Source: an uncultured bacterium (lineage in GTDB: Bacteria; Cyanobacteriota; Vampirovibrionia; Gastranaerophilales; Gastranaerophilaceae). Taken from it: a DNA stretch of 48,127 nt. Below the pieces are notes generated by a model. That model searched no databases. It was not told where the DNA came from and saw only the letters and a program-made list of their open reading frames with translations. A program made the translations under genes and the position numbers. The first letter of the stretch is position 1, and each line of letters opens with the position of its first letter. The stretch covers positions 1 through 48,127 of the forward strand of contig CASDPF010000023.1 of the NCBI GenBank assembly GCA_949282215.1, written 5' to 3'. Shown here one piece after another: positions 20,929 to 36,606 of this stretch.

Positions 20929-22695
20929 ATGGAAGAATTGAATTTAAACGAAATTACGGAACTTGTAGCGGATAAAAAATATGAGGAAGCAAAAGAAAAG
21001 CTTTCTTGTATATCCAATAACGATGAAAATAATTTGGAAGCTCTTAAACTATTGGGCTTATGTAATATTAATCTGGAAAATTACAAAGATGCACAAAGTA
21101 ATTATGAAACTATCGTAAAGTATTTTCCTGAAGATGCCACCAGTTGGTTTTATTTAGCCTGCTGCTATGATTATCAGGAAGATTATATTCATGCGACTGC
21201 CGCTTATGAAGAAGTTATAAAACTCAGAGAAGACTATACTGAGGCTTATAAGTGTCTTTGCGTAATTTACGTTAAACAACACAATGAAGATAAGGCTATT
21301 GAATTAGGTAAAAAAATTCTTGAAAAAGTCCAAGATGATTATACTCTTTTCTATATTGTAGGTACGGCGTATATGTCGACAAAACGTTTTGAAGAAAGTG
21401 TTTATTATCTGGAAAAGGCCCTTGAATTAAAACCGGATCACGCACAGTTATATAACAATCTTGGAACTTCTTATATTACTATCGGAAACCTTGATAAGGC
21501 TATTGAAAACTTCCATAAAGCAACTGAACTCGATCCTGATAATGCAATAACTTATTTCAATATCGGTTCAATTTTGCAAATGAAAAATGACCATAAAAAA
21601 GCTTGTGAATATTTTGAAAAGGCTTACAGCTTGGAAGAAAATGACAGTTTTCTAACCGCTCTTGCACTATCTGAAGTGAAACTTGAGGATTGGAATAATG
21701 CAATTAAACATTACAAAACTCTTATTACTCATCATCCTGAAAAACAGACTTATCAATACAATTTGGCTTGTTGTTTTGAGGCAAAAGGTGAATATGCTTA
21801 TGCAATAGGAATTTTGGTTAAACTTGTTGCACTAAATCCAAAATCGACTTCAATGTCTAAAAAGCTGGCAAATCTTTTCCTCAAAATTAATAAACCAATT
21901 CAGGCAAAAGAAATTTATGAAAGAATAATTATTCAAGGCAGTGTTTCGTTTGAGACATACTATGAGTTTGCCAATATATGTATGCTTACGGATGATACCG
22001 ATAAAGCTGAAAAAATTCTTAAAAAAGTCGTTGAATTGAAACCTGAACACGCTCAGGCTCATAAGGATTTGGGTGTAATTTATTTGACAAGAAAATTATT
22101 TGACTACGCAAAAGACGAGTTTGATAAAGCTCTTGAGTACGCACCGAATAATGGTGAAATTTTGTATGAATATGCAAACTATCTTCATGCGACAACTGAG
22201 TTTAAGCAGGCAGATGAATATTATCAAAAAGCATTGGAAGTTATGCCTGATAACGGTGATATTTTAGCTTTTTCAGCTTTGAATAAAATGCATACGGGGG
22301 ACTTGGAAAAAGCCCGTGAACAGATTGATTTAGCAATAGGTAAAAAAGTTCAAAGCGGATTTTTGTTATTTATCGCAGGTAAAATTCGTTACTTGTTGAA
22401 AGATTATGAAGATGCTAAAAGATTTTTAATCAAATCATTTGAGCTTGAACGCAATCCTGAAGTTAAAAATCTTTTAGGCTTATGCTATTTTGAGCTTGGT
22501 GATTATAATCAAGCAAAAAATATTTTTCAAAATATATTGGAAGGAAAACCTCTAAATCCTTACGTAATGCTGAGTATTGCTAAGTGTGATGCAAAACTCG
22601 GTGATACTGATGGAGCACTTGAGGTTTTAGAAAAAATAACAGAAAATTTCCCTGATAATGAAGAAGCACACGAATTGATAAGAGAGTTATCGTAA
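20929..22695 (+). CDS. large tetratricopeptide-repeat protein
   Basis: 588 aa made of about 15 TPR units of 34 residues, for example AQLYNNLGTSYITIGNLDKAIENFHKATELDPDN, read here as one unit in two halves: AQLYNNLGTSYITIGN and LDKAIENFHKATELDPDN. No signal peptide or enzymatic domain, so a cytoplasmic scaffold. TPR proteins of this kind often assist pilus or secretion assembly. The G-tract pilin leader begins 20 bp after its stop with no promoter of its own, so the two may be cotranscribed. Confidence 0.93.
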   Translation: MEELNLNEITELVADKKYEEAKEKLSCISNNDENNLEALKLLGLCNINLENYKDAQSNYETIVKYFPEDATSWFYLACCYDYQEDYIHATAAYEEVIKLREDYTEAYKCLCVIYVKQHNEDKAIELGKKILEKVQDDYTLFYIVGTAYMSTKRFEESVYYLEKALELKPDHAQLYNNLGTSYITIGNLDKAIENFHKATELDPDNAITYFNIGSILQMKNDHKKACEYFEKAYSLEENDSFLTALALSEVKLEDWNNAIKHYKTLITHHPEKQTYQYNLACCFEAKGEYAYAIGILVKLVALNPKSTSMSKKLANLFLKINKPIQAKEIYERIIIQGSVSFETYYEFANICMLTDDTDKAEKILKKVVELKPEHAQAHKDLGVIYLTRKLFDYAKDEFDKALEYAPNNGEILYEYANYLHATTEFKQADEYYQKALEVMPDNGDILAFSALNKMHTGDLEKAREQIDLAIGKKVQSGFLLFIAGKIRYLLKDYEDAKRFLIKSFELERNPEVKNLLGLCYFELGDYNQAKNIFQNILEGKPLNPYVMLSIAKCDAKLGDTDGALEVLEKITENFPDNEEAHELIRELS

Positions 22696-22902
22696 GTATT
22701 TCGAAAGGAGGATGTATGCAAAATACAGTTATAACGTGTATTTCGGGGGGGGGGGCAGCCGTATTGTAGCTCGGGAGAGCTTTTTGGATTAGTTCCTCCA
22801 AATAAAAGATACTGCAATATAAGCCGTGCCAAAAGACACGGTAATTTGTCGTGCGAAATTTTTGAAAAACGAATAATAAAAATATAAGCAAACGGAGGAT
22901 TT
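22696..22902 (+). promoter_or_regulatory. pilin leader copy 1: short ORF with a G11 tract, hairpin and anti-Shine-Dalgarno
   Basis: Ordered elements shared with copy 2: strong ribosome site AAAGGAGG (GGAGG at 22707-22711); short ORF MQ...ISGGG (22716-22769); G11 tract (22745-22755); TCCTCC (22794-22799), which can pair with either GGAGG; hairpin CCGTG/CACGG (22824-22828, 22837-22841) inside the conserved block AAGCCGTGCCAAAAGACACG; conserved AAATTTTTGAAAAA; and the pilin ribosome site GGAGG (22894-22898). No -35/-10 pair is apparent here. I cannot match it to a known riboswitch class. Confidence 0.7.
22716..22769 (+). CDS. 17-residue leader ORF with poly-G tract (copy 1)
   Basis: MQNTVITCISGGGAAVL then TAG, with GGAGG 4 nt upstream. 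The 11 G encode the end of Ser, three Gly and the start of Ala. With one G fewer the same ORF would run about 39 codons further, through ...ISRAKRHGN..., to a TAA at the pilin start. The copy-2 leader behaves the same way. Whether it is translated is unproven; the ribosome site and conserved MQ-x-x-x-I-x-x-ISGGG support it. Confidence 0.5.
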   Translation: MQNTVITCISGGGAAVL

Positions 22903-23642
22903 ATGAAAAAGAGAAATGCTTTTACCTTAGCAGAAGTCCTAATTACATTAGGAATAATCGGAGTAGTAGCGGCTCTTACTCTGCCAGCGATAGTTCAAAA
23001 AAATTATGAAAAAGAAACGGTAGCAAGAGTAAAAAAAGCCTATCCTATTCAATTTTACAGCAGGCATACTTAATGGCATCTCAAAAAGACGGAACTCCAG
23101 ATGAGTGGGGAGCAACAGGCATGTATGAAGAGAGCAGTCATATTTTTCTGGCAAACAAATTTGCACCCTATATAAAAATAACGACGAATTGTGTTGGTAT
23201 GAGTAATGCGGATGTTAAAAAGAATTGTACTAATGTATATTATAATACAACAGAGTTCGCAAGCTATAAAATAGCAGATGGGACAACATTCATTTTTAGA
23301 ATATTTGATGGAAATTGTAATAGCCAATATGGTCCAATAATGCAGTTAAAACATGTATGTGGAAGTATACTTATAGACACAAATGCTACAGGAAAACCTA
23401 ATATAATAGGAAAAGATATATTTGCTTTTTATATTACAAAATCAGGAATATATCCTCAAGGAACAGAGTTTGATAGATTATCAATGAAAAATTATTGCAC
23501 ATCATCAAGGATATGGGGACAAAATTATAATGGCTACCGTAATGGTGGATCTTGTACCGCATGGGTATTGTATAATGAGAATATGGACTACTTGCGATGT
23601 GAATTGGATTGGGAAAGCGGTAAAACATCTTGTAAAAAATAA
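22903..23642 (+). pseudogene. type IV pilin-like protein gene, frameshifted by a 5-bp tandem duplication
   Basis: The 5' part encodes MKKRNAFTLAEVLITLGIIG, a class III prepilin signal with Ala at -1 of the cleavage site. After residue 47 the frame breaks at CCTATCCTAT (23039-23048); the paralogue at 35872 has a single unit. The shifted frame stops at 23071-23073. The correct frame then stays open for 189 codons to 23642 and aligns with the paralogue without gaps (MASQKDGTPDEWGATGMYE...). The stop and an in-frame ATG overlap as TAATG, so a headless C-terminal part could be made by reinitiation. Loss of one CCTAT would restore the gene, so this may be a recent or reversible OFF allele. Confidence 0.85.
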
Positions 23643-35644: not shown

Positions 35645-35673
35645 TTGAAAATTTGTGGTAAATAACTTATAAT
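35645..35673 (+). promoter_or_regulatory. sigma70-type promoter of pilin copy 2
   Basis: TTGAAA (35645-35650), 17 bp, TATAAT (35668-35673). The predicted start is near 35680, which gives an untranslated leader of about 190 nt. Confidence 0.75.
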
Positions 35674-35679
35674 GAATAA

Positions 35680-35871
35680 AAAAGGAGGACGTATGCAAAA
35701 AGCTTATATAGATAGAATTTCGGGGGGGGGGCTACCGACTAACAGATAAGTCAAGCATTTCCGACTTAGACCTCCGAAGTAAAGCAAAAGAGCTGAACGT
35801 AAGCCGTGCCAAAAGACACGGTGATTTTTGATGCAAAATTTTTGAAAAAAGTAATAAATATGGAGGAAGTT
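35680..35871 (+). promoter_or_regulatory. pilin leader copy 2: short ORF with a G10 tract, hairpin and anti-Shine-Dalgarno
   Basis: Same order as copy 1: GGAGG (35684-35688), short ORF from 35693, G10 tract (35722-35731), CCTCC (35771-35775), CCGTG/CACGG hairpin (35804-35808, 35817-35821) followed by T5, AAATTTTTGAAAAA, and the pilin GGAGG (35862-35866). CCTCC can pair with either ribosome site, so two exclusive folds are possible. Unlike copy 1 it has a full promoter. Confidence 0.72.
35693..35749 (+). CDS. 18-residue leader ORF with poly-G tract (copy 2)
   Basis: MQKAYIDRISGGGLPTNR then TAA, with GGAGG 4 nt upstream. One G fewer would open the frame for 46 codons: ...GGGYRLTDKSSISDLD, then LRSKAKELNVSRAKRHGDF, ending at TGA near 35832. 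The SRAKRHG block lies in the same -1 register in copy 1. Translation is unproven. Confidence 0.5.
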   Translation: MQKAYIDRISGGGLPTNR

Positions 35872-36606
35872 ATGAAAAAGAAAAACGCATTCACTTTAGC
35901 AGAAGTGCTGATAACATTAGGAATAATCGGCGTAGTAGCAGCTCTTACGCTGCCTGCAATAGTTCAAAAAAATTATGAGAAAGAAACGGTAGCCAGAGTA
36001 AAAAAAGCTTATTCAATTTTACAGCAGGCATACTTAATGGCATCTCAAAAAGACGGGACTCCTGATGAATGGGGAGCAACAGGCATGTATGAAACAAGCA
36101 GTCATATTTTTCTTGCCAACAAATTTGCACCTTATATAAAAATAACGACGAATTGTGTTGGAATGAATAATGAGGAGGTAAAAAAAATTTGTACTGCCAT
36201 ATATTTTGATACAACATCTTATGCAAGCTATAAAATAGCAGATGGAACAACATTTATTTTTAGAATATGGGATGGACAATGTAATGGACAGTATGGTTCT
36301 ACAAAACAGCTAAAAGATGTATGTGGACGTATAATGGTAGATGTAAATGCTACAGGAAAACCTAATATATTAGGGAAAGATATATTCAATTTTTATATTA
36401 CAAAATCAGGAATATATCCTACAGGAACGGAATTTGATAGATTATCAATGAAAGACTACTGTACAAAATCCAGAGAATGGGGAGGGGCTTATAATAGTTA
36501 CTACAATGGTGTAGCGTGTGCAGCTTGGGTATTGTATAAGGAGAATATGGACTATTTGCGATGTGAATTGGATTGGGATAGCGGTAAAAAATCTTGTAAA
36601 AAATAA
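35872..36606 (+). CDS. type IV pilin-like (pseudopilin) protein, intact copy
   Basis: 244 aa from the ATG with GGAGG 5 nt upstream. Short basic leader MKKKNA, then FTLAEVLITLGIIGVVAALT: the class III signal with Glu at +5, and Ala instead of Gly at -1. The globular part has six or more Cys, including a C-terminal pair (RCELDWDSGKKSC) that can close a disulphide loop as in pilins. Processed by prepilin peptidase and displayed on, or part of, a type IV or type II-like filament (family knowledge). A GTG-started extension to 35806 is open but lacks a ribosome site. Paralogous to 22903-23642, with divergence concentrated in the middle. Confidence 0.93.
   Translation: MKKKNAFTLAEVLITLGIIGVVAALTLPAIVQKNYEKETVARVKKAYSILQQAYLMASQKDGTPDEWGATGMYETSSHIFLANKFAPYIKITTNCVGMNNEEVKKICTAIYFDTTSYASYKIADGTTFIFRIWDGQCNGQYGSTKQLKDVCGRIMVDVNATGKPNILGKDIFNFYITKSGIYPTGTEFDRLSMKDYCTKSREWGGAYNSYYNGVACAAWVLYKENMDYLRCELDWDSGKKSCKK

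Follow-up and report, generated by a model that had tools for sequence, protein, structure and literature searches.

Translation of bacterial genes can be controlled by their own leaders, and the best comparison for the locus described here is with the erm-type attenuators and other anti-SD/anti-anti-SD leaders, in which a short leader ORF with a strong ribosome site (SD) lies ahead of a second, masked SD, and where the ribosome stands decides which of two exclusive pairings is formed. G-rich sequences near pilin genes have been associated with another role in Neisseria, where a G4 element upstream of pilE promotes gene conversion among pilin copies. The present locus belongs to the Gastranaerophilales, an order of gut non-photosynthetic relatives of cyanobacteria. 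Poly-G tracts are best known from phase-variable contingency genes, for example pilC and pglA of Neisseria (PMC5953494), and a programmed +1 frameshift is described for prfB, which encodes RF2 (PMC12421855).

We analyzed a stretch of 48,127 nucleotides (hereafter the window) from a genome of 2.19 Mb that is 98% complete. It contains two copies of a leader with a poly-G tract, each placed before a type IV prepilin gene. We give an even chance to the reading that they belong to a multicopy cis-acting leader controlling the translation of such genes, acting as a leader-ORF switch with the tract and the pilin SD as competitors for a CCUCC sequence. The resemblance to the erm-type attenuators lies in the short ORF, its strong SD and, as predictions, the masking of the downstream SD and the two exclusive pairings. 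What competes here, unlike in these attenuators, is a homopolymer of G within the leader ORF, about 70 copies are present in one genome before a family of surface proteins, and the predicted sign is repression by leader translation, with no inducer known and no match in Rfam.

Copy 1 starts directly 3' of a TPR gene whose stop is at 22695; the features of the two copies given below are on the forward (+) strand. The ribosome site AAAGGAGG (22704..22711), kept in nearly all copies, is followed by a leader ORF of 17 codons (MQNTVITCISGGGAAVL, then a stop; 22716..22769) whose frame and stop position are conserved across the family. Its tract is exactly G11 (22745..22755), running from the third base of codon 10 to the first base of codon 14, and is separated by 147 nt from the pilin ATG at 22903. 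The preliminary description, which had placed an 11-G tract in a short leader ORF with a ribosome site about 150 bp ahead of a pilin gene, was accurate on these points. Between the tract and the pilin gene lie a CCTCC anti-SD (22795..22799), able to pair with either the tract or the pilin SD, a hairpin CCGTG-CCAAAAGA-CACGG (22824..22841) and the pilin ribosome site CGGAGG (22893..22898). The pilin ORF itself (22903..23073) is frameshifted relative to copy 2 after about 48 codons and stops after 56 codons; its remainder, found in the ORF 23073-23642, matched no Pfam family. Copy 1 is also among the more diverged members (79 bits versus about 150). It may be decaying or carrying an assembly error, and it is a poor representative of the family. 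Its first helix can be extended by eye (UAUUU/AAAUA), and in its predicted fold the CCUCC is on the tract with a probability of 0.93 and the pilin SD is open with a probability of 0.86.

In copy 2, a promoter-like -10 TATAAT (35668..35673), recognized by eye here and in similar form in most copies, precedes the leader ORF (MQKAYIDRISGGGLPTNR, then a stop; 35693..35749). The tract is G10 here (35722..35731), hence the ORF is outside the usual frame of the family. The CCTCC (35771..35775), the hairpin CCGTG-CCAAAAGA-CACGG (35804..35821) and the pilin ribosome site GGAGG (35862..35866) follow in the same order, and lead to an intact prepilin of 244 aa (35872..36606) matching Pfam N_methyl (PF07963) and NCBIfam IV_pilin_GFxxxE (TIGR02532) above cut-off, that is, the N-terminal prepilin cleavage/methylation motif. 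The two tracts are the only runs of at least 7 G in the window, which holds 9 overlapping GGGGGGG matches versus 0.4 expected, a number reached in 0 of 100 shuffles. At the start of the window, the ORF 8-2017 begins with tandem PEPTPVKPDVIEPTSVK repeats.

The family extends well beyond these two copies. The hairpin sequence that follows the tract (AAGCCGTGCCAAAAGACACGGT) matches the genome 63 times at up to 3 mismatches, with 0 matches for the reversed control, and the readable matches form the end of a leader of about 190 nt before a gene beginning MKK(K/R)xAFTLAEVLIT. With a covariance model, this genome yielded 70 copies, a sister species (G010) 39 and four further species of the genus 5, 2, 1 and 3 (11 in total), whereas seven other species of the genus yielded none. 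When the search was widened to 239 genomes of the family, with strict filters by which weak copies are lost, one clear member was found in another genus (L133, in G161). A second match of the model outside the genus (L132) was discarded as a chance hairpin only, and the pattern matches L135/L136 and L137 as unrelated to the leader; pattern searches requiring GAATGAAA, or exactly eight G, are excluded from the negative evidence. All checked copies with readable downstream sequence head an FTLAEV prepilin. In its own genome the leader stands before about 70 genes, the prepilin motif being present about 179 times, a pilin total that is a motif count only. Short pilins make up 7 of the 96 leader-bearing ones by script, and six is the better figure since L023 is a start mis-call.

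The leader ORF of the family has about 16 codons, with the pattern SD-MQK..I..ISGGGA[T/A].-stop, and together with the pilin N-terminus the leader forms a conserved block with mosaic variation among many paralogues. The search of Rfam gave no match at the gathering level and none up to E=5, and the open literature, a scope that leaves aside most subscription papers and all preprints, gave nothing relevant on the leader, on phase variation in Gastranaerophilales or on frameshifted pilins. Two side observations concern the surroundings of the family: several leaderless pilins (L191, L193, L198, L206 and others) have, by reading, a divergent XRE-type regulator-like gene upstream, and in L065 (G006) the element is split by some 60 nt of A-rich inserted sequence, which comes directly after a G18 tract.

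The length of the tract is nearly constant. Among 117 distinct copies it is 11 in 99, 10 in 7, 12 in 7, 13 in 2, 9 in 1 and 18 in 1, as read from assembled sequences, in which within-strain variation is invisible. The leader ATG lies 29 nt ahead of the tract in 110/115 copies, and the leader frame meets a stop within 21 nt past the tract in 109/115, versus 84/115 and 19/115 in the other two frames, so that the leader ORF, called conserved in the preliminary description, is conserved along with its SD in the family at large; two copies (L044 and L117) have no leader start. Between this genome and G010, 19 pairs of pilins are reciprocal best matches at 60% identity or more, and the tracts were equal (11 and 11) in 18 of them, the leader DNA around them being about 85% identical, i.e., with about 15% drift. 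Changes beside the tract are compensated so that the frame is kept, as in ATTCG12 (L016, and similarly L112) and, among divergent copies, in TTTTCG10 (L204), ATTCG10 (L133) and GCG9 (L154). About 10% of the tracts are off frame. Codons 4-5 of the leader are variable, which indicates that the peptide is not constrained there.

The second conserved element is the CCTCC-type motif, found 39 nt past the tract in 105/109 copies. It is complementary to the start of the tract (CGGGGG/CCUCCG) as well as to the pilin SD (CGGAGG/CCUCCG), and because it can pair with one or the other the two pairings are mutually exclusive; all 11 G become pairable once a second helix is added (GGGGGGCU with AGCaUUUCC). 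There is little variation in the helices, and formal counts of covariation are low. A swap permutation was run on 24 divergent copies, where the anti-SD pairs with its own pilin SD at -13.5 kcal/mol versus -12.4 kcal/mol when swapped (2/5000 swaps as good), and where 3/5000 swaps were as good for the anti-SD and its own tract flank. In the same copies, the controls showed no covariation, either for the anti-SD and the leader SD (4977/5000), which discards the leader SD as the selected partner of CCUCC, or for the flank and the pilin SD (2518/5000); shared ancestry is still included in this permutation, and in the controls likewise. The covariation with the pilin SD is weak among close relatives (58/1000 over all copies, 28/1000 in 33 divergent windows), as is expected over near-identical copies in which little varies. 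Examples are the long pairing of L060 and the pairings AAAACCUCC/GGAGGUUUU of L133 and UUUCUCCAAA/UUUGGAGGAA of L071. The earlier proposal that CCTCC could mask the pilin ribosome site is thus strengthened by its complementarity to the pilin SD and its covariation with it, weak over all copies.

Predicted ensembles give an idea of how these pairings would be distributed. For the full-length RNA without a ribosome, the mean probability of the anti-SD:SD pairing is 0.72 and that of a free SD 0.21; with a ribosome modelled on the tract, they become 0.92 and 0.06, respectively. For an RNA ending just past CCUCC, this sequence is predicted on the leader SD at 0.57 and on the tract at 0.40, and the pairing with the tract is lost when a ribosome is placed on it. 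A run of at least 5 T follows the hairpin in only 53/108 copies; with a U run in half of the copies only, a transcription terminator is unlikely, and attenuation of the terminator type was set aside.

The scenario that we propose is the following. In the nascent RNA, CCUCC would pair with the G tract and the pilin SD would stay free (ON), and a ribosome on the leader would cover the tract and free CCUCC, which would then mask the pilin SD (OFF). Translation of the leader would in this way repress the pilin, and a lower initiation on the leader or a lower transit through it would raise pilin output. The G tract would be at the same time the competing arm and a row of GGG codons, and its length would be fixed because it determines the pairing as well as the frame that leads to the stop. 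As in attenuators, the leader has a translatable ORF with its own SD and a conserved frame and stop, and it has an SD-masking sequence with covariation in the divergent copies (weaker over all copies). The possible pairings and the conservation of the frame can be read directly in the sequence; the direction of control and the kinetics we infer. The weakest point of the leader-ORF switch is that its modelled ON state is the minor one: the masked SD is already favored without a ribosome and the nascent CCUCC prefers the leader SD, so that the ON state would depend on kinetic trapping or on some factor. It also counts against this switch that copy 1 itself sits before a broken pilin gene.

Related leaders exist in which the tract is located inside the gene. 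Poly-G tracts preceded by A or T are present in 13/13 genomes of the genus, and a second class of loci, which we call fused (L199, L208 and L271-L278 in this genome, L211-L330 in other genomes), follows the plan SD-ATG-11 codons-G9..16-stop, with the long ORF of a prepilin or of another surface gene either running on past the tract in a different frame or coming after it. With a frame-blind pattern, such sites are found in 17/117 family genomes from 7 genera, and the reversed pattern gives 0 matches. A single clear long ORF is present at 81 fused loci; it would come into frame with one G fewer in 64 and with one G more in 12, and is in frame as it stands in 5; relatedness is roughly controlled only, by taking the majority frames of 40 protein clusters (50% identity), which are 32, 6 and 2 in the same order. 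In 94% of the 64 loci a stop closes the read frame within 5 codons, versus 44% at matched gene-body positions, and the stops are TAA in 39, TAG in 22 and TGA in 3. The distance from the ATG and the length of the tract trade off (33+12, 34+11, 35+10). No ATG, GTG or TTG is found in the open frame between the tract and FTLAEV in 32/60 fused prepilins, and in 45/64 fused loci the open frame is closed upstream by a stop; neither an internal nor an upstream start therefore explains expression in many loci.

This organization points to programmed recoding, or else to a phase-OFF state with a strong bias. Recoding or transcript slippage is favored over neutral phase variation, since the latter should yield equal numbers in the two off-frames, but a phase-variable repertoire kept OFF, its off state being biased, would also be compatible with these frames. 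A role of the tract depending on the frame, as advanced in the preliminary description, is conceivable for these other genes, in which the tract is out of frame inside the prepilin ORF. As in prfB, a G-rich SD-like run precedes a zero-frame stop, and an open frame that +1 shifting would reach lies downstream, an arrangement conserved in 64/81 fused loci. Unlike prfB, the fused loci have no CTTT slippery codon, their stops are mostly TAA or TAG, and the G run is much longer; the arrangement of a CTTT slippery sequence with a UGA stop was found at none of the listed fused sites. The comparison with prfB does not apply to copy 1, where the pilin has its own start.

Several observations were made beside these loci. 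A poly-G leader of this kind also stands before non-pilin genes, which from reading their translations, rather than from a family search, are fucosyltransferase-, Stealth-type transferase-, secreted protein- and sugar epimerase-like (L231, L233, L240 and L295, respectively). In another genus (G052), the leaders of L308-L320 are of the uORF type (MQNxIIxRISxIGGG); the hairpin that follows them differs (GGCGAAAG..CTTTCGCC), and a CCTCC was not seen ahead of the pilin SD. These leaders are apparently a parallel form. Finally, the prepilins of L289, L290, L308 and L312 carry N-terminal extensions containing translated interspersed repeats (..CEERSDVAIA.., ..CHPELAAPLVADVKEAYKGGG..), open in frame to FTLAEV.

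Other explanations of the leader have to be weighed against the leader-ORF switch. Slipped-strand phase variation, by which the length of the tract would set the leader frame and hence the expression of the pilin, was the central proposal of the preliminary description, and it now appears improbable for this family. A long G tract inside a leader ORF of an AT-rich genome invites this reading, which would also accommodate the tenth or so of copies that are off frame, with lengths of 9-13 and 18, and the G12 copies, in which ribosomes would be carried far on, across CCUCC and the hairpin. Tracts of the G9-G20 type in pilus or surface genes are moreover shared with the contingency genes of Neisseria, including pilC (PMC5953494). 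In contrast to these genes, the tract of the leader is in a separate ORF with a conserved frame, and its length is near-fixed across copies and species, so that the comparison with sister species, named beforehand as a possible refutation, speaks against a phase switch. Compensation next to the tract (L016, L112, L204) is the opposite of what characterizes a contingency tract, and no alternative frame is conserved. The loss of one G would indeed extend the leader of copy 1 to 56 codons, as had been calculated, but this product is confined to copy 1: the same frame closes a few codons past the tract in nearly every other copy, including copy 2, which has G10 to begin with. The SRAKRHG block reported in both copies is conserved as an RNA/DNA motif and not as a peptide, being a one-frame reading of the hairpin CCGTGCCAAAAGACACGG. 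The frame with one extra G, open in many copies, is closed early in L075, L079, L082, L119, L124 and L125, and its changes mostly alter amino acids, so that it was rejected as coding. A role at the level of DNA, the tract being a quadruplex or a recombination tag which promotes gene conversion among pilin copies, is highly improbable. The mosaic variation of the block shared by many paralogues would fit it, G11 is by our own reasoning the shortest tract that allows a two-tetrad G4 with loops of one base, and a G-rich element upstream of pilin genes recalls that of pilE. This tract, unlike that of pilE, is transcribed within a leader ORF, lacks an interspersed G4 pattern and is present at every copy, so that there is no single expression site; it tolerates a central A (L012), G9 and G10, and neither the reading frame nor the pairing, both conserved, is needed by a DNA element.

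Two further alternatives bear on the RNA. A protein or a small RNA could bind the conserved RNA, with the leader ORF being incidental; this would give a function to the hairpin CCGTG..CACGG, conserved and without an assigned role, and would agree with the freedom of codons 4-5; the conservation of frame and stop in divergent copies goes against it and makes it decidedly improbable. The leader could also be a relic or a variant of a putative poly-G recoding module, leader and tract having been retained after the pilin gained its own start. The fused loci argue for this possibility through the frames of their long ORFs and the early stops of their read frames, through the likeness of their leaders (MQNTVIASKLR-GGG and MQNAIIVRISPI-GGG, compared with MQNTVITCIS-GGG for class A) and through intermediates such as L281, L204 and the loci of G052. 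It would leave unexplained why CCUCC and the pilin SD covary and why the tract length is fixed over about 15% divergence, and we regard it as unlikely.

In its mechanism the pilin leader would represent a variant form of leader-ORF attenuation, unusual for its homopolymer arm and exceptional in copy number. More tentatively, and with some doubt, one short module (an SD, about 10 codons, a poly-G tract and an immediate stop) may gate pilins and some surface genes genome-wide in Gastranaerophilales in two forms, one being a uORF in which the tract and the pilin SD compete for the anti-SD, and the other an out-of-frame prepilin start read via +1 recoding or transcript slippage. If the working proposed for the leader is true, a single RNA module would co-ordinate a huge pilin repertoire, amounting to about 70 of the approximately 179 motif-bearing genes, and the G tract would be a structural and coding element, not a mutation hot spot. 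This would also be a warning that not every poly-G tract should be called phase-variable, and the out-of-frame prepilins of seven genera offer a simple test case for poly-G programmed recoding in bacteria.
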